DNA from: a virus
Reading direction: 5' to 3' (one strand)
DNA: 31,779 nt
Virus record (IMG/VR): IMGVR_UViG_3300008954_000173
Span: 1-31,779 of that record
Shown here: in pieces, positions 4,115 through 29,894 of the stretch
Numbering within the stretch: the stretch's first letter is position 1
Layout of the letters: every line of letters begins with the position of its first letter
The notes under the pieces: generated by a model
The model's input: only the letters and a program-made list of their open reading frames with translations
The model's database searches: none
Told to the model about the DNA's origin: nothing
Position numbers and translations under genes: made by a program

Positions 4115-4618
4115 TTATTTAAATATATTGTCTAAATCTAAGCTAAACGCTTTTAAAACTTCTTCAGGTAGTTTTTTATATTGTTGTTCTAGTGATTTTG
4201 TAAAAAATTCTGTTTTGTCAAAACCTTGATGATATACTGCTTTTGCTACTGCGTATTCGTTTAATCCTTTACTTAATGCCCATTTTTTAAAATGCTTTGC
4301 GCTTATGCCGCCAGATTTGCCAAATTTATATATAGAGTCTTTTCCTTTTATTTTCCAAAGTTTTCCCTTGTTATTTCTTTTATTATATTTACTAGTTGTT
4401 TTTCTTACACCTCCTGCACCCCTTACGCCTTGATCTACAAATTTACCGTAATTATTCATCGAAAATGATATAGTATTATTTACTGTATCTATATTAAATT
4501 TAATACTGTTGTAAAGAGATTTAGACGCATTTTTTTTTGCTTTTGTTAGTCTACTTCTCGACTGTTGCACTACATTTTTACCAAATTTATCCAAAGTATT
4601 TTTTAAATTGTCTCGCAT
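4115..4618 (-). CDS. HK97 gp10-like head-tail joining / tail completion protein
   Basis: 167 aa from the ATG at 4618-4616 (MRDNLKNTLDKFGKNVV). An in-frame ATG at 4666 exists, but it would overlap the upstream gene by 64 nt and adds a low-complexity serine/arginine leader; the chosen start gives a 16-nt overlap. A basic N-terminal helix with QQSRSRLTKAKKNASKSLYNSIK is followed by a beta region with GKFVDQGVRGAGG, the layout of HK97-gp10-like proteins (helix, then the Y-ExG or VDQG segment). The C-terminal half is lysine-rich and includes FGKSGGISAKHFKKWALSKG, which fits family members in Bacteroidota phages. It is placed directly after the tail-terminator-like gene, as in many siphophages. Confidence 0.7.
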   Translation of the reverse strand: MRDNLKNTLDKFGKNVVQQSRSRLTKAKKNASKSLYNSIKFNIDTVNNTISFSMNNYGKFVDQGVRGAGGVRKTTSKYNKRNNKGKLWKIKGKDSIYKFGKSGGISAKHFKKWALSKGLNEYAVAKAVYHQGFDKTEFFTKSLEQQYKKLPEEVLKAFSLDLDNIFK

Positions 4619-5067
4619 ATATCTATAATTACGTCTGGTACTTCTGCTTGAAATTGAACAGTCCAACCTACCAACCTGTTATCATTAGCAAATTGATATA
4701 TTTTTCTTATTGGTGCTGCGTCTCTTACATATATTTTATCATCAAAACTAAATTTTCTTATTTTTTGAAATACCCTTCTTGATACATTAAGCATATCATT
4801 ATAAACTTCTTGTCTATTGTCGTTACCCTTAAACTTTTCGTTTGTTATATTTTGCTCTACATTTACATAATCAACAAAATCAATACTTACATCTAATACG
4901 GTTAGATTTTCTTCAAAATTGCCGTCCTCTACGTCTATATGTGCTATAGCAGGTAAATCATATTTGTAAGCGTTAAAGTCTTCTATATCGCCTTCCGTTA
5001 TTGTTTTTATCCTACTGTCTTGCTCTAAGACTTCTTTTAAACCTTGTATTAACTTAAAATAACTCAT
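4603..5067 (-). CDS. Tail terminator-like protein
   Basis: 154 aa. Short alpha/beta protein ending in RLVGWTVQFQAEVPD.IIDIC, similar to the C-terminal beta strands of tail-terminator proteins (lambda gpU type), which cap the growing tail tube and join it to the head. The N-terminus FKLIQGLKEVLEQDSRIKTITEGDI also fits this fold. The start ATG overlaps the stop of the frameshifted upstream reading frame (ATGA at 5067-5064), and the 3' end overlaps the gp10-like gene by 16 nt. The next gene being gp10-like supports a neck-module assignment. Not confirmed by alignment. Confidence 0.66.
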   Translation of the reverse strand: MSYFKLIQGLKEVLEQDSRIKTITEGDIEDFNAYKYDLPAIAHIDVEDGNFEENLTVLDVSIDFVDYVNVEQNITNEKFKGNDNRQEVYNDMLNVSRRVFQKIRKFSFDDKIYVRDAAPIRKIYQFANDNRLVGWTVQFQAEVPDVIIDICETI

Positions 5068-5827
5068 TTTCTAGGCTTTAATAGTTTTGCTTTGTCGCTT
5101 TCATATGCTAATCTAAGTAATACTTTACCGATTGGCTCATGTTGTACTTGATCGTCTTTAATTCTAACCGCTGAAGCGTAAGTATCAAATGTTTGAAACC
5201 ACCCCCATTTTTTTCCAAATGATTTTGATAATTCATCCGCTTCGCTTCCGTCGCTTTCATATAACTCTGGGTAGCGGTTAACAAGTCTTTCCCTAAATTG
5301 TAAAAAAAAAACAAAGCTCCTTCATAAATCTCATAGGGTAAATCTTTAAAAAAATTAACATCTACTTTAGAATTATAACCTTTTATTGTATAAGTTTTTA
5401 TTTTTTCTTTACTCCACCAATTTTTAAACTCTTTTTCTTCTTCTATTTCTCTATATAAAACATTTATTAAATCTAAATGGTTTTTGTTTGTGTCATTTAA
5501 AAAAGTATCTATGGCGGCATATTCGCCCGCGGTTATATCTTCTAAACTAGGTATAAAACCAAACTCAACACCTTTATATTTAAATCTATTTATAAAAGAA
5601 CTTTTTTCGTTTAATATATTATTTATATTCTCTATAGCTTTTGCATAATCATTAATAGGTAATTCATTAATAACATATAAAGGCAAATTTAAACATATAG
5701 ATAACACTTGTTTTTCATTTACTTCTGTTTCTTCTTCTTCGGCTTTCTTCTGTAACTCTACAATATTGTTAAATTGAGTTATAGTTATATCTTTTTTGTT
5801 TTCAGGTATTTTGTATTTATACTTCAT
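5064..5827 (-). CDS. Tail assembly chaperone-like protein, needs a -1 frameshift at a T10 run
   Basis: The zero frame from ATG 5827 runs 239 aa and stops at 5108. At plus-strand A10 (5302-5311; T10 in the mRNA sense) the -1 frame opens, continues to TGA at 5066-5064 and overlaps the next start as ATGA. The shifted product would be 254 aa. After the T run the -1 frame reads FRERLVNRYPELYES, then KKWGWFQTFDTYA and KVLLRLAYESDKAKLL, with ordinary codons for this genome. The zero frame there uses rare GC-rich codons (CGG, GCG, ACG, CAG). The KWGW..Y/L-AYE pattern resembles a family found near tail genes of Bacteroidota phages, and G/GT-type tail chaperones commonly use -1 frameshifting. The N-terminal part contains GVEFGFIPSLEDITAGEYAA. 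A homopolymer sequencing error is the main alternative. Role as chaperone is inferred. Confidence 0.72.
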
Positions 5828-5856: not shown

Positions 5857-7020
5857 TTATCGTATATCAATGTTTGCTTTTTTGTTTTTTAATACTTCTA
5901 CAGCAAAATATCTCACAGCGTCAATGCCATGATTAAAAGCGTCTATAGGTTTGTTTAATTTATTGCCTTGCTTGTCTTTGTCCCAAGTGTAATTTCTAAA
6001 CTCTTTTATTAGATTTGTACTAGATTTTGTTATTTCTATATCGTACTCATGTAATAAAGATATTCCATAATTAATAGAATCTTTTCCTTTTGCCGCTGCT
6101 TTTATCATAATTCCATTTCTTTTTATTTCTTCGATACTTTTTGGTTCTGCTGCGTCTGCATAAACAAAACGTCTTATATTATCTTTTTTGATTAAGTTTG
6201 ATATATCATTATTTAATAAACCTGTTCTGTAAATAACCTCGTTTAATATTAATTTATTATCATATCTATAACAATCGATTAAGGTTGTCGGGTCGTTTGT
6301 ATATCCAAAGTCCATGCCCGAACCTAAATACTTAGCATTGTTTGGTACATTGTCTATTGCAACCCAATTATTAAATACAACGCCGTCTAAACTTCCTATT
6401 TCACCAAGTCCGTAAACTTTATACCAATTATTCCAAAAGTTGCTTTTGTTTGCTTTTTCTTTTGCTTTTAATATAAAGTCTATTGCAGACTGTGGACACG
6501 CTTCGTTATCCTTGTAAGTAAGGATTATAAAATCCACGTCGTTGTCGTGTTGTATTTCGTTATGAAACCAAAAAGAAGCAGTTGGATTCCAATCTAAATA
6601 TATTTCTTTTTTTGTTCTAGATGCTAATTCTGTATAAGCATGAAATGTCATATTATTACACTCATTCATGTATAATATATCACGCCTTGCACCTCTTAAT
6701 TTTGCATCATTATCCGCACTAAAAAACTCAATATATGATCCGTTTGGAAATGTATATTTACTATCAGTACGGTTAAAATATTTATCATACCATCTATTTG
6801 TCAATAATAGTATCTTTTTAAAATCTTTTAAAGCACCTCTTTTTAAATGGGGTATTGATTCAGCTACTACACTTATTTCTAAATTAGGGGTTTTGCAAGC
6901 TTTATCAATAAGAACAGGCAGTATTCCGAAAGTTTTACCCGCAGAAGTACCGCCTTGTACGCCTTTTATACGTCTTTTACATGCTCTTATTTTATTTATT
7001 GCTGTTGTTCTTTTGAACAT
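5857..7020 (-). CDS. terL: Terminase large subunit (TerL)
   Basis: 387 aa. It translocates DNA into the prohead and cuts the concatemer. The ATPase domain has Walker A GGTSAGKT (residues 23-30), an acidic Walker B ILYMNE (115-120) and a coupling-like segment around DWNPT (143-147). The RNase H-like nuclease domain has MDFGYTNDP (D237), FVYADAAEP (D289) and DAFNHGIDAVRY (D360, D367), giving the usual metal-binding aspartates. Length is slightly short for TerL but both domains are intact. The start lies 3 nt after the stop of the 110-aa gene, and the upstream neighbour but one is small-terminase-like. Confidence 0.97.
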   Translation of the reverse strand: MFKRTTAINKIRACKRRIKGVQGGTSAGKTFGILPVLIDKACKTPNLEISVVAESIPHLKRGALKDFKKILLLTNRWYDKYFNRTDSKYTFPNGSYIEFFSADNDAKLRGARRDILYMNECNNMTFHAYTELASRTKKEIYLDWNPTASFWFHNEIQHDNDVDFIILTYKDNEACPQSAIDFILKAKEKANKSNFWNNWYKVYGLGEIGSLDGVVFNNWVAIDNVPNNAKYLGSGMDFGYTNDPTTLIDCYRYDNKLILNEVIYRTGLLNNDISNLIKKDNIRRFVYADAAEPKSIEEIKRNGIMIKAAAKGKDSINYGISLLHEYDIEITKSSTNLIKEFRNYTWDKDKQGNKLNKPIDAFNHGIDAVRYFAVEVLKNKKANIDIR

Positions 7021-21104: not shown

Positions 21105-21691
21105 TATTCTATATTTATTAACATTAAATTTCTAACTATAACCGTATCTAAAGAACTACCTAACTGTATTTGAAACTCAAAATCTGCGCTTTGTGTTGTG
21201 TCAAAATCTACTTTACTAAAAACATCTGATGTATTTCTGTCTGTGTTGTTTGAACCTGCATTAGCTCGCATTGTGACAGCTTGCGTATCTGTAAAGCTTA
21301 CAGTTCTTTCAAATCCGTAATAGTCTAATGTAGCAGAAATATTTAATTTTGCATATAATAAGCCAGTACTTAAATTATTATTAAATCTAAATCGCAAAGC
21401 GTAAACAGCGTTATTATCTATTTTTTCTATTTCAGCTTTTACATAAAATCTGCTACCCTCTTTAAATGTGTTAGCAGGTATATTTATAGTATAAACAGTT
21501 GTATTTGCTGTTGTACCTGTATGTGATATATTAAAAACTTTATCGATTAATTCTATATCTGAATCGCTAGAAGGCACTAAATTACTTACTTCTATTTTTT
21601 TTGTTTCTCCTGTCTGTACTATAGCTAATTCTTCAGTACCTTCTAAAGGTAATGTAACGCTATTTAAATCTGTTATTTTTTTATCTGACAT
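21104..21691 (-). CDS. Fibre-like appendage protein
   Basis: 195 aa. N-terminal DKKITDLNSVTLPLEGTEELAIVQTGETKKIEVSNLVP is a recurrent phage fibre N-terminus (KITDL-...GTE-L-IVQ-G.TKK). The remaining 140 residues are beta-rich, with FNISHTGTTANTTVYTINIPANTFKEG, probably a jelly-roll head domain for attachment. Located between head-completion genes and lysis, so it may be a head or second tail fibre. TAATG overlap on both sides. Confidence 0.74.
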   Translation of the reverse strand: MSDKKITDLNSVTLPLEGTEELAIVQTGETKKIEVSNLVPSSDSDIELIDKVFNISHTGTTANTTVYTINIPANTFKEGSRFYVKAEIEKIDNNAVYALRFRFNNNLSTGLLYAKLNISATLDYYGFERTVSFTDTQAVTMRANAGSNNTDRNTSDVFSKVDFDTTQSADFEFQIQLGSSLDTVIVRNLMLINIE

Positions 21692-22269
21692 TATAATATA
21701 ATTTTAAAGCCGTTTTCTTGTAATAAATAACTTCCGTTTTCTTGTAATAAATAAAAATCTGTTGCAGGTTCATCTATTATAAAACCTGCACTTAATAAAT
21801 CATCAATATAAAAAGCGGGTTTAGTTTCTTGTGCTTTTATACTTATTTTTGAACCATTGAAAGAAGTTTTGTTTCCTCCTGTTGTAAATTTTACACTTTT
21901 AACTCTGCAGCCATTATATAAACCTAATATTTGATATTTGTTTAATCTAGTTTTTACTATACAACCTATTTTTTTATTTAATAATTGCGCTGTATTTTCA
22001 TAGTCTACATTTATTTGTTTTAAAATACCTGTAATATTTTGATTGTATTTTATACCGTCTGGTAATTGTTCTAAATCTTCAGTAAATATATTTTCATCAG
22101 ATCTTAACTCATATTCATATATAGTAGTAGTAGGATATTTTACTAAAGTGCTTTCATTTACTTCTATTTCATATCTTCTATATTCAGTATATGTAAATAA
22201 ATACATTTTTGTAATACCTCCTATTGTATTGTTACATGGTTCTGTTCTACCTTTGAATATGTTACACAT
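21691..22269 (-). CDS. GRTEPC-family virion protein, second copy
   Basis: 192 aa, starts MCNIFKGRTEPCNNTIGGIT. It shares with the 178-aa protein at 25164-25700 the GRTEPCN-[ST]IGG start, [YF]ELR[AS]D.NIF, TTGG..T-FNG near residue 130, and the A-F end, so the two are paralogues. The family resembles major tail (tube) proteins of Bacteroidota phages. A C-terminal addition ends FYLLQENGSYLLQENGFKII, two copies of an LLQENG motif seen as receptor or tail-end repeats. TAATG overlap upstream and downstream. Confidence 0.72.
   Translation of the reverse strand: MCNIFKGRTEPCNNTIGGITKMYLFTYTEYRRYEIEVNESTLVKYPTTTIYEYELRSDENIFTEDLEQLPDGIKYNQNITGILKQINVDYENTAQLLNKKIGCIVKTRLNKYQILGLYNGCRVKSVKFTTGGNKTSFNGSKISIKAQETKPAFYIDDLLSAGFIIDEPATDFYLLQENGSYLLQENGFKIIL
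21710..21754. repeat. 24-bp direct tandem repeat in the second GRTEPC gene
   Basis: The 21-nt unit starting CCGTTTTCTTGTAATAAATA occurs at 21710-21730 and 21734-21754, period 24 nt (8 codons), so copy number changes keep the frame. It encodes the LLQENG repeats. Confidence 0.85.
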
Positions 22270-22780: not shown

Positions 22781-24820
22781 TTATTTATTTACAAATCCGT
22801 TATTTGTCATATTATTTGGTGCTATTGAAACTAAATTGTCATTAGTTGGCACACTATAACCTCTTCTTCTTGCTTCTGATGTTGTTATTGTTTTTGCTAA
22901 AGGGCTGTTAACATCAACTGAACCGTTTTTCTTTAAATAAATAACTCTATTCCATTTGTGCCTGCACGCTCCGCCACCTTTGTAAAGCCATATAGAATAT
23001 GTATCTGCACCGTTTAAGCCCCACCCGGGGTTAACTGCTTTGTTTTCCATTTGTATAATATCCTCTTTCCTGTAAACTTTATTAGCTTTTACCATTTTTT
23101 TACAAAACTCTCTGCTGTTGTCTGATATTTTACCTACATACTTATATCTGATAACTATATCTTCGCTATCTTGCTCGCTTTTTGCGTTTGGTCTTGCTGT
23201 TCCTGTAGAAGCTAATCCAATATTAATCAAATCGTGTGCGTGTTCATCTGTTTCGTATTCCACTTCTTGTTCAGATAATACTATCCAATCTTCACTATTA
23301 AACTCCTCACCTAATTCTATTAGAGCGTCTGCAACTCCTGAGTTTGCTTGTTGTTCTACTTTTAAATCAATACTTAAACCTAACTCTTTTAATTTTGTTT
23401 GCGCCCATCTTATACCCGAATCACCTCCCCAAGCGTCCCACATTAAACCGCCACAACCCTCTGAATAAGGAACATCTTTATATTGTTGGTGTCTTTTAAA
23501 TTGTGCCATTCTTTTTACTGTGTCCAGACTTATAGGTTCACGCTTTGCAAGTTGATTTGCTCTAGTTTTTCCAACTGGTGTGCCACAACTACCCCAACCG
23601 TTTTTATCCGCCCATTCAAGCGCCCTTTTTGCGTTGTTTGTAGCTCCTTCCGGATAGTCTGTGTAACTCTCTAATTCTATTTTGTGTTTAGATAATTCTG
23701 TGTTTTGAGTTTCTATTATGGTTTCTTTTTCTTCTGTCAAAGGTTTAAAGTACAAATTTACGTTTATACCGTAATAATATAATATTTCTTCTAAGCTGTC
23801 TATTATTTCATCCTGCTTAGGTTGTATAACTCTTTTTAGTGTTTGAGCTTCTGCCACGTCTAATTCATCCGCATTTGAACTAAAACCGTTTGCATCTTTA
23901 ACACCAAATAATAAAGGGCTAACTACCTCGTGCGATATTAATATTTTATTTTGTGCTTCTGTACTCGAAAACTGCCATTTATCGTGTGCATCATTTATTT
24001 CTATAACTTCAACTGTTATAGGTTTTTCGCCCTGTTGAAAATTAATTATAAATTTACCCGCGTTATTAGAGCCTGTTAATTGTTGTCTTACTTTTCGTTC
24101 TATTTCGTCTTTTTTATCATCGTCTAAATTATAAGAATCTGGAACATTCACAATATACCCCGCAGACATTCCGTTTTTCATATGTGATATAAGAAAATTA
24201 GATATTTCTTCCTCTAATTCTGCATACTGCAAACCTGATTGATAGGTAGGTAATGAAAAATAATCTTTACCCATTTGATAAGGTTTTATTGCGTAAATTT
24301 CGCGTCCTTCTTTAGACGTTCCGAAAGCAGGTATTTTTATCGGCTTGTTTTCTTCTTTGTTAGGTTTTGACCAATCATTGCTGAAATAATAATTTTTAAT
24401 TTCCCTGTCTAGGTTTTCTATTTCGGGGGCTATTTTATCTACAGAAATATGACTTAATTTATTTAAAGTATTCCCTTTGCTTTTTATAACTTGAATATAA
24501 GCCATACCCTGAATTTGGAAGTCTTTAATTATATTTTTTATATCTTTTTTACTTAATACACTTTTTAACTTAGCGTAATTTGTTAAGTTTTCTTTTTGGT
24601 TTCTAATAGCTAACCCTTTACCATACATTAACCTACAATAACCGTTATTTATAGCTGAGTTTGTCGGACTACCTATATATCGATCATTAACATATTTAAA
24701 GTAGTTATTTTTAACTCCATTTAATACATAATTACCCGCTTTGTTTTCAACTATATTCTGCTTAACATGATTGTTAAAACATATAAAAATCGGTTTATTT
24801 TTACCCTTATTATTAGCCAT
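22781..24820 (-). CDS. Portal protein fused to a YPEGA...DAWGG domain and a MuF-like C-terminus
   Basis: 679 aa. Residues about 1-365 are a portal: SPTNSAINNGYCRLMYGKGL, QGMAYIQVIKSKG, then a stem and wing region with RKVRQQLTGSNNAGKF and ISHEVVSPLLFG. Residues about 386-480 carry YTDYPEGATNNAKRALEWAD, CGTPVGKTRANQLAK and VPYSEGCGGLMWDAWGGDSG, a small domain often embedded in phage head proteins. Residues about 555-680, with SREFCKKM, AVNPGWGLNG and GGGACRHKW, match the C-terminal zinc/His region of MuF-like head morphogenesis proteins (CRH). The fusion of three normally separate functions in one gene is notable. Overlaps the upstream gene by 8 nt. Confidence 0.88.
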   Translation of the reverse strand: MANNKGKNKPIFICFNNHVKQNIVENKAGNYVLNGVKNNYFKYVNDRYIGSPTNSAINNGYCRLMYGKGLAIRNQKENLTNYAKLKSVLSKKDIKNIIKDFQIQGMAYIQVIKSKGNTLNKLSHISVDKIAPEIENLDREIKNYYFSNDWSKPNKEENKPIKIPAFGTSKEGREIYAIKPYQMGKDYFSLPTYQSGLQYAELEEEISNFLISHMKNGMSAGYIVNVPDSYNLDDDKKDEIERKVRQQLTGSNNAGKFIINFQQGEKPITVEVIEINDAHDKWQFSSTEAQNKILISHEVVSPLLFGVKDANGFSSNADELDVAEAQTLKRVIQPKQDEIIDSLEEILYYYGINVNLYFKPLTEEKETIIETQNTELSKHKIELESYTDYPEGATNNAKRALEWADKNGWGSCGTPVGKTRANQLAKREPISLDTVKRMAQFKRHQQYKDVPYSEGCGGLMWDAWGGDSGIRWAQTKLKELGLSIDLKVEQQANSGVADALIELGEEFNSEDWIVLSEQEVEYETDEHAHDLINIGLASTGTARPNAKSEQDSEDIVIRYKYVGKISDNSREFCKKMVKANKVYRKEDIIQMENKAVNPGWGLNGADTYSIWLYKGGGACRHKWNRVIYLKKNGSVDVNSPLAKTITTSEARRRGYSVPTNDNLVSIAPNNMTNNGFVNK

Positions 24821-25163: not shown

Positions 25164-25700
25164 CTAAGGATTTATATTTGTAGCGCTTACAATAGCCTCT
25201 AAAGCTGTTATAGTTGTTGCGTCAAAAAATGGCGCTGCTATTTTAGAAACTGAAGTAGCTGTCACATTATACCCGTTAAAGTCTGTTCTAGCTCCACCAG
25301 TAGTATTATTACTTGCTGTTACTCTTGCGCCATCAGTAGACCCCATTAATTGATAACCGCCGTTTCTACTAATAGGTATAATATAATGTAAACCTTTTTG
25401 TAATAATTCTATTTGTATATTGCTATCTTTATCTAATTTTTTTAAAGCAACTGTTAATGTTTCGTTAAATACAGATGTGCCTGTATTTTCATCGCTAACA
25501 CCGTCAAAATTAAATATATTTGCGTCTGCTCTTAATTCAAACTTAAAAGCTTCTGTAATTCCTGCGTCTATTGCGGTAACTTCTCCCGCTGTTATAGTGA
25601 AAGCATCTGCCACGTAAGGTATAGCAATAAAAGCGTTTAAACCTCCTATTGAATCATTACACGGTTCTGTTCTTCCGCTTGTTATTGGACAAATTGACAT
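25164..25700 (-). CDS. GRTEPC-family virion protein, likely major tail (tube) or head protein
   Basis: 178 aa, MSICPITSGRTEPCNDSIGG, then FKFELRADANIFNFDGVS, FNETLTVALKKLD, NGGYQLMGSTDGARVTA and TTGGARTDFNGYNVTATSV. These match the layout of major tail proteins in Bacteroidota phages (beta-barrel with a conserved EPC-IGG start). It lies between hairpins directly after the major capsid gene, so high expression is likely. A capsid decoration protein is the alternative. Confidence 0.72.
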   Translation of the reverse strand: MSICPITSGRTEPCNDSIGGLNAFIAIPYVADAFTITAGEVTAIDAGITEAFKFELRADANIFNFDGVSDENTGTSVFNETLTVALKKLDKDSNIQIELLQKGLHYIIPISRNGGYQLMGSTDGARVTASNNTTGGARTDFNGYNVTATSVSKIAAPFFDATTITALEAIVSATNINP

Positions 25701-27977: not shown

Positions 27978-29894
27978 TTATCCTATGCTAGCGCTTTCTA
28001 CCTGATTTCTTTCTATTTGTTGCTGTGTTGTTATGTTTTGACCTACTACATAAGCCTGTATTGGCTGTTGCTCTTCTTGTAAACTTTGCTGTACTTGATT
28101 TACACCACTTGCTCCAACTAAATTAAATGCGGGTGCTTGTTGTGTGGAAACATTGCTAGTTTCGCCACCTGTAGAACCTGCTGAAGAACCCCCGCTTGCG
28201 CCTAATGCGCTTAATCCTTTTGCTGTTGCTGCTAATGTTGCCGCGATACTTATTCCAGAAGCTACATTATTAGCCGCTACAACTGGTACAGCGGGTATAA
28301 CACCTAATTGTGCTACTGTTTTTGCGTTACCTACTTGCGTGTTTATTATGGTTTTTGCTATCCCTGCTGCGCTTTCTGCTATTAATAAACCTGCTTGTAG
28401 TTCCTTGTTTTTTTCAAAAACTTGTTTTAATACAGCTACACCAGACTGTAAGTTATTTAATTGTGCGTTTTGTATTGCTGTTTTTGTATCTGCTTCTATT
28501 TTTTCGTTTTCTATTCTTTTTTTACTTTGTTCGTCTGCATTTAATGTAATTTGTTGGTCAATTTCTTGTAACCTATCTTTTAATTCGTTTTCAGCATCCA
28601 AACGCGCTTGTGTTCCTTTTTCGTAAGAATCAACTTTTATTTGCAGTCTTTCTTTTTCTATTAACCTTTCTTCTTTTAAGATTGTTTTTAATTGCTCTAG
28701 TCTTTTTAACTCGTTTTCTTCTCTTTCTGCTTCAAATTGTTTTGCTCTTAATTGTCTTTGTTCTTCTGCTTCTGCTCCGCTTTGCTCTAGCTCTTGACGC
28801 TCTTTTATTAATGCGGTTTTGTTTGTTTCTTGCTCACTTCTGAAGCTTGTTATCTGAGCTAGTATACCCTCTTTATTTGCTTGCGCTTCTAATAATGCTA
28901 CTTGATTTTCTGTACTGTTGTTTTTTACTACTTGTGCTTGTGCGCTTGCTAGTATTGCGTCAGCTTGTTTTAACATTGCTTTTTCTTGCATGTCTAAAAT
29001 AATAGCTAAATCATTGTTAGCTTTTTCGCGCTCGTCTATACCTTTTAAATCATTATCCCTTAATTGTCTTGCGCTTTCTGCTAATGTGTCGTATTTTTCT
29101 ACTAACAAACTTTGTTGCGCTGCTGCTATTTGTGCGCTTCTAGCTAAATCTATATTTGTTTTTGCTCTTGCTCTTGCGCTTGAAACTTCTACTTTTGAAA
29201 CTTCTTTTATTGTGCTTTCTGTTAATGTGCCTATTTCGTCTACTGCTTCGCCAAAATTATCTATAATTACTTTACCTGCTTTTGCTGTGGATTCTGAAGT
29301 ACTTACTATAGCTTTTTTAGTTTCTAATATACTTTCGTTTAGCTCTTTTATTTTTTCTTTATCATTACCGCCAAAAAAAGATTTTTCCCAAATAACTTGA
29401 GCACTTTGTATAGCTAATTTTATACCTAAAAAGGATATTTTTAATTGGTTTACTGCTATAGTTAATAAACCCCCTATAACTTTACCTAAAGCATCAAACC
29501 CGCCTGTTGCTTCATTAGCTTTGTTTATTGCATCAGAAAGAGCGTTAACAAGGTCGTTGACTACTATACTTATAGACTCCATTATAACCTTAAATGGTCT
29601 CGATATTTTTTCATTTTCAGAAAATGCAGCGGCTAAACTACCTAATAAAGTAACTAGCAAACCTATTCCAGTCGCTTTTATAGCTAAACCTAAACCTTTA
29701 AAACCATTAGATAAACTTTTTATACCTTTTTTTGATTTTTCAGCACCTTTGCCTATTTCATCTACTTTAGTATTTGCAGCTTTCTTAGTTGTTTTATTTA
29801 AGTCTTGTACACTATTATCTAATTTTTCAACGCTTTTTGTTGTTTCGTCTAAATTAGATTTTACTTTTATTTCTATTATTTTTTCGTCTGCCAT
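27978..29894 (-). CDS. Tail tape measure protein
   Basis: 638 aa. N-terminal KVKSNLDETTKSVEKLDNSVQDLNKTTKKA is a coiled coil typical of tape measure starts, followed by GFKGLGLAIKATGIGLLVTLLGSLAAAF (membrane-like stretch about residues 66-90) and long helices with AKIEESER-type repeats (about 230-470). The C-terminal LLIAESAAGIAKTIINTQVGNAKTVAQLGVIPAVPVVAANNVASGISIA is a hydrophobic pore-like region common in these proteins. By length it would set a tail of roughly 90-100 nm. Marks the phage as a long-tailed siphovirus-type. Antisense frames here are shadows. Confidence 0.9.
   Translation of the reverse strand: MADEKIIEIKVKSNLDETTKSVEKLDNSVQDLNKTTKKAANTKVDEIGKGAEKSKKGIKSLSNGFKGLGLAIKATGIGLLVTLLGSLAAAFSENEKISRPFKVIMESISIVVNDLVNALSDAINKANEATGGFDALGKVIGGLLTIAVNQLKISFLGIKLAIQSAQVIWEKSFFGGNDKEKIKELNESILETKKAIVSTSESTAKAGKVIIDNFGEAVDEIGTLTESTIKEVSKVEVSSARARAKTNIDLARSAQIAAAQQSLLVEKYDTLAESARQLRDNDLKGIDEREKANNDLAIILDMQEKAMLKQADAILASAQAQVVKNNSTENQVALLEAQANKEGILAQITSFRSEQETNKTALIKERQELEQSGAEAEEQRQLRAKQFEAEREENELKRLEQLKTILKEERLIEKERLQIKVDSYEKGTQARLDAENELKDRLQEIDQQITLNADEQSKKRIENEKIEADTKTAIQNAQLNNLQSGVAVLKQVFEKNKELQAGLLIAESAAGIAKTIINTQVGNAKTVAQLGVIPAVPVVAANNVASGISIAATLAATAKGLSALGASGGSSAGSTGGETSNVSTQQAPAFNLVGASGVNQVQQSLQEEQQPIQAYVVGQNITTQQQIERNQVESASIG

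Follow-up and report, generated by a model that had tools for sequence, protein, structure and literature searches.

Evidence for a conserved -1 frame switch at a poly-T run in a Bacteroidetes phage gene whose unslipped product keeps a dual-coded ending

Downstream of terL, phages of a large lineage that infects Bacteroidetes bacteria carry what is, by comparative sequence analysis, almost certainly one gene with two products, made through a conserved -1 switch at a run of Ts. The original prediction had proposed such a switch in a single genome. What is new here is that the zero-frame tail, the part of the unslipped protein encoded past the run, is a selected and dual-coded product end, unlike the usual tail-chaperone frameshifts. 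PHROG 32199 and PHROG 38404, two families of unknown function, are the two parts of this one frame-switched gene, and annotations that split them can be corrected. Our literature search, which covered papers outside subscription journals, returned no paper describing this family.

Layout of the gene

The window is the whole stretch of DNA analysed, an IMG/VR virus record of 31,779 bases with 28% GC and a 119-bp repeat at its ends. The features considered here are as follows.

5108..5827, minus strand: zero-frame CDS, an ORF of 239 aa comprising the N-terminal domain and a zero-frame tail of 64 codons
5302..5311, minus strand: putative slip site of exactly ten Ts (5311 to 5302); positions 5309-5303 read T TTT TTT in the phase X XXY YYZ
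5064..5303, minus strand: -1-frame C-terminal domain with a KWGW motif (PHROG 38404), accessible by frame switch only
5111..5302, minus strand: dual-coding overlap of the zero-frame tail (predicted helical hairpin) and the first part of the -1 domain, judged by openness, third-position and codon-shuffle tests
5857..7020, minus strand: terL, with Terminase_3C and PHROG terL matches; conserved upstream neighbour
4603..5067, minus strand: downstream neighbour of 154 aa, whose ATG overlaps the -1 stop as ATGA

The zero frame runs from the ATG at 5827 to a TAG stop at 5110-5108, and its N-terminal domain belongs to the PHROG 32199 family (E=1.2e-19). The T10 run is read in this frame as TTG TTT TTT TTT TAC. 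A -1 shift at the run leads to a fusion of 254 aa that stops at the TGA at 5066-5064. Neither PHROG 32199 nor PHROG 38404 has an assigned function. No ATG, GTG or TTG was found ahead of the -1 domain in the -1 frame (5064..5303).

The original prediction had placed the end of the zero frame at 5108, the T10 run at 5302-5311 and the close of the -1 frame in an ATGA, and these coordinates and the accompanying counts are correct. It had also described the last zero-frame codons as unusual for this genome. Indeed, the zero-frame tail scores -0.22 bits per codon in codon usage versus 0.95 in the N domain, and the -1 frame scores 0.37 bits per codon in the overlap and 0.8 after it. We read the poor score of the tail as a result of dual coding, not as the sign of a meaningless frame.

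The -1 relation is constant across relatives

A search with the -1 domain retrieved 80 loci and a search with the N domain one more, and the -1 relation holds in 81/81. With Bacteroidetes MAG contigs, additional IMG/VR contigs and two isolate phages (P12024S and P12024L) included, the count rose to 206/206 loci, among them the source genome. In an enlarged set of relatives with both halves, consisting of IMG/VR contigs, three Bacteroidetes MAG contigs and the isolates P12024S/L, the C domain is read in the -1 frame relative to the N domain, with the shift at the same point, in 347/347 loci (238 distinct junction DNAs); four further loci with only one half were left out. The nearest relative of the source genome (L004) is 49% identical to it. 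Annotations of the two isolates split the halves into distinct hypothetical proteins that directly follow terL (P12024S_38/_39 and P12024L_40/_41).

The phase of the run is equally constant. The in-phase heptamer T TTT TTT (X XXY YYZ) occurs in all 347 loci, which is automatic for runs of nine or more. Sense-strand runs of at least nine Ts are found once in 58,796 codons of the other ORFs in these loci, and the naive codon-usage probability of the slip-site Ts in 58 representatives is about 1e-43.

These results bear out the predicted switch at the T run that gives a fusion. Homologues with a single continuous frame, the finding named in advance as refuting it, were sought in the 347 loci and are absent. 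The prediction had left room for an indel error, and a homopolymer is the classic site of such errors. However, the -1 relation and T TTT TTT are kept across relatives from many assemblies and from isolates, always in the same frame with run lengths of 8, 9 or 10, so this explanation is excluded; an indel, an assembly error or a decaying pseudogene now has a negligible probability, and we rejected it. Separate synthesis of the C domain, from its own start or by translational coupling, would fit the annotation of P12024S_39 and P12024L_41 from an internal ATG. This is very improbable: the source genome and 42/58 representatives have no ATG, GTG or TTG up to eight codons past the slip, the annotated P12024S start falls inside the conserved domain, and the two frames meet at a single point, in every case with a -1 shift. 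We rejected independent initiation.

The zero-frame tail is a second ending on shared DNA

Past the slip site the zero frame stays open for 64 codons in the source genome and for a median of 57 among 58 representatives (<70% identity). In other long ORFs of these loci, the frame in the corresponding phase is open for 9.9 codons on average, so that the tail is open about six times longer than the control frames. Chance would bring an expected 0.5 of 55 representatives to the observed open length, and at the control positions of the source genome the +1 frame is open for at least 64 codons at 0 of 5,717. Across relatives the two endings overlap by about 25-75 codons (64 in the source genome). 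Some lineages have short tails, of 25 codons in P12024S and about 37-41 codons in three other loci (L017, L063 and L064).

The third base of a -1 codon, where changes are often synonymous, is the second base of a zero-frame codon. Among pairs with 90-98% N-domain identity, third-position identity is 0.93 in the overlap, 0.846 after the zero-frame stop and 0.814 in the N domain. The same order is seen at 75-90% identity (0.877, 0.751 and 0.695) and at 55-75% (0.743, 0.686 and 0.591), and it breaks down in pairs below 55% (0.55, 0.61 and 0.503). These values argue that the zero-frame tail slows synonymous change in the -1 frame. When codons were shuffled under the -1 protein, the similarity of zero-frame residues exceeded expectation with z 6.7 (0/200 shuffles), versus -0.2 and 1.7 in controls.

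AlphaFold2 gave the zero-frame protein a mean pLDDT of 90, with a long helix at residues 165-207 that spans the slip, followed by another at 209-231, and the tail is thus predicted to be a helical hairpin. The -1 domain is also predicted to be helical, with moderate confidence (pLDDT 73). Together, the comparative tests argue that the zero-frame tail is itself selected and that evolution has kept both endings on shared DNA. This indicates that an unslipped product can keep a selected ending of its own; the zero frame of tail-chaperone genes usually closes a short way past the slip.

The length of the T run is maintained

The run is 9-10 Ts long in 319/347 loci and 8 in the other 28, which form a single lineage with a GC content of about 50% and retain the heptamer in ribosomal phase. 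To either side of the TTT TTT core, the numbers of Ts are (2,1), (2,2), (1,2), (3,0) or (3,1), each combination totalling nine or ten; (1,0) and (1,1) were never seen, and (2,0) is confined to the T8 lineage. Among 68 representatives (<70% identity) 67 have a run of at least nine; permuting the right flank, in a test that ignores shared ancestry, gives an expectation of 55.6. At least six changes in each flank can be placed on the tree, against one change in the state "run of nine or more", which is too few independent events for a sign test. The pattern suggests that, in all but one lineage, offsetting changes in the flanking codons hold the run at nine or more.

The second TTT ends in T at every locus, and C would be synonymous there in both proteins if the next codon is TAC or TAT. 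Elsewhere, conserved Phe codons change between TTT and TTC 5-13 times on the tree, and the two slip codons stay TTT. Since every locus has an intact T7, we read the few TTC entries in the slip-codon alignment columns as alignment shifts. Downstream of the run, no RNA structure was detected in 70-nt windows of 58 representatives (mean z about 0, for pseudoknot-free structures), and the source genome has no Rfam match. In 17 loci (L014, L024, L103, L123, L148, L152, L159, L168 and relatives) the T run is closely followed by another in-phase heptamer, T TTA AAC, at a place where most relatives have TTA GGG.

RNA polymerase or ribosome

We then propose a model for the expression of the gene. Standard expression would yield the N domain with the zero-frame tail, and a one-base slip on the run of 8-10 Ts would yield the N domain joined to the -1-frame "KWGW" domain. 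It would be RNA polymerase that slips, inserting one additional U as it transcribes the run. We infer this step with about an even chance of being right; the fusion protein is identical whether the ribosome or RNA polymerase slips. The original prediction had named a programmed -1 frameshift, with polymerase slippage as an alternative. The alternative is now slightly ahead, with the ribosome a close second.

The lean towards RNA polymerase comes from three observations: changes in the flanks keep the run at nine or more, no downstream structure was detected, and TTC is never used. Bacterial RNA polymerase slips efficiently on nine As or Ts, and its RNA-DNA hybrid measures 9-10 bp (PMC5009743); on poly(T), the E. 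coli enzyme is more prone to slippage (PMC6260861). The proposal resembles transcriptional slippage in Thermus thermophilus dnaX, where the run is nine long (PMC5009743), and in Shigella mxiE, where an A/T run likewise gives a frame-shifted mRNA. It differs from both in concerning a gene of a phage structural region with a dual-coded zero-frame tail, and in that the slippage is read from sequence alone. Potyvirus P3N-PIPO also involves slippage into a frame that overlaps another coding frame (PMC4552492, PMC5027478), but it uses an RNA virus polymerase and a GAAAAAA site and makes an unrelated protein. Against RNA polymerase stands the T8 lineage with its in-phase heptamer, and Bacteroidetes might also favour a ribosomal site made up of Us only.

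The ribosome could instead make the same two products by slipping back one base at U_UUU_UUU, in the manner of lambda G/GT and P2 E/E+E', a reading whose chance we put somewhat short of even. The heptamer is in phase in every locus, the T8 lineage included, and the known tail-chaperone precedents are ribosomal (PMC5009743; P2 annotation). Our literature search outside subscription papers found no report of transcriptional slippage in a tail chaperone gene, and the studied frameshifts are described as ribosomal (PMC5009743). On the other hand, ribosomes slip weakly at U_UUU_UUU in E. coli (PMC5009743), and in none of the 347 loci (238 distinct junctions) does another slippery heptamer take the place of the T run. 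A ribosomal site needs 7 nt, yet the run is kept at nine or more; the second TTT always ends in T although C is synonymous, and no stimulatory structure is seen downstream. Slippage by both machines, in comparable shares of the fusion, would agree with the presence of both the in-phase heptamer and the run of at least nine; it is improbable, being less simple than one machine. With its hundreds of natural variants, this gene offers a case in which ribosomal and polymerase slippage could be told apart.

A possible tail assembly chaperone pair

As tail assembly chaperones, the two products would form a pair like lambda G/GT. We consider this role probable on the basis of anatomy: a small gene in the structural region has a short form and a fused form with a helical C domain, and a -1 switch joins two ORFs in all 347 loci, as in G/GT-type genes. 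Homology to known tail assembly chaperones is weakly supported by sequence, through PF10109 (Phage_TAC_7) in 2/57 members (E 0.0057), PHROG 166 "tail protein" in 4/57 members (best 2e-5) and an annotated tail assembly chaperone in BFVD (E 0.06). Neither product matched the PDB by sequence or fold, the predicted structures being those of the zero-frame protein and the C domain. Matches to a Rhizobium phage "putative tail protein" (E 0.3-0.9) were judged to be chance after the region was viewed. Of the chaperone identity originally suggested, the anatomy thus fits, the sequence support is weak, and the gene follows terL instead of lying between the tail tube and tape measure genes, as G/GT-type genes do. 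The combined reading, in which RNA polymerase, slipping on a run whose length suits the 9-bp RNA-DNA hybrid, gives rise to a tail-chaperone-like pair with an unslipped ending that is selected and dual coded, is offered tentatively, as somewhat less probable than not.

Like lambda G/GT, the gene is small, lies in a structural region and uses a -1 switch to make a short product and a fusion with an extra C domain. It differs in its long selected zero-frame tail, in using a run of 8-10 Ts only, in its place after terL, with the presumed tape measure gene about 7 kb away, and in that no strong sequence homology was found. P2 E/E+E' (PF10109, the family of the weak match in 2/57 members) also has a T-rich -1 site, TTTTTTG, but its zero frame (E) closes 20 nt past the annotated shift site, and the next gene is the one for the tape measure. 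In the SEA-PHAGES training data the zero frame of tail-chaperone genes stops on average 26 nt after the slip (PMC10885494), whereas here the dual-coded zero frame stops a median of about 170 nt past it.

Gene neighbourhood

The place directly after terL and far from the tape measure gene had been called unusual, but it is the rule for this lineage, since terL is upstream in relatives and the genes at 4603, 4115, 2664 and 268 are downstream. With the terL of the source genome as the only query, terL was detected in 35/58 representatives and was upstream whenever detected; it is also upstream of the gene in P12024S and P12024L. Downstream, the gene at 4603 was detected in 46 of the 58 representatives, that at 4115 in 31, that at 2664 in 41 and that at 268 in 34.

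The presumed tape measure gene (27978-29894) lies several genes downstream of the frame-switch gene, about 7 kb round the circle, and is matched over its whole length by PHROG 32985 only, a family of unknown function. The portal gene (22781-24820) is long (679 aa), with a portal domain followed by a PHROG 2859 (unknown) region and further C-terminal sequence. Two PHROG 19091 paralogues on the minus strand (25164-25700 and 21691-22269) both start with a C..GRTEPC motif; one follows the capsid gene and the other lies a few genes further. One relative of the frame-switch gene (L153, IMGVR_UViG_3300025645_000048) is on a contig of 89,305 bases, about 2.8 times the size of the source genome; this contig may be a larger phage, or a prophage that includes host DNA.
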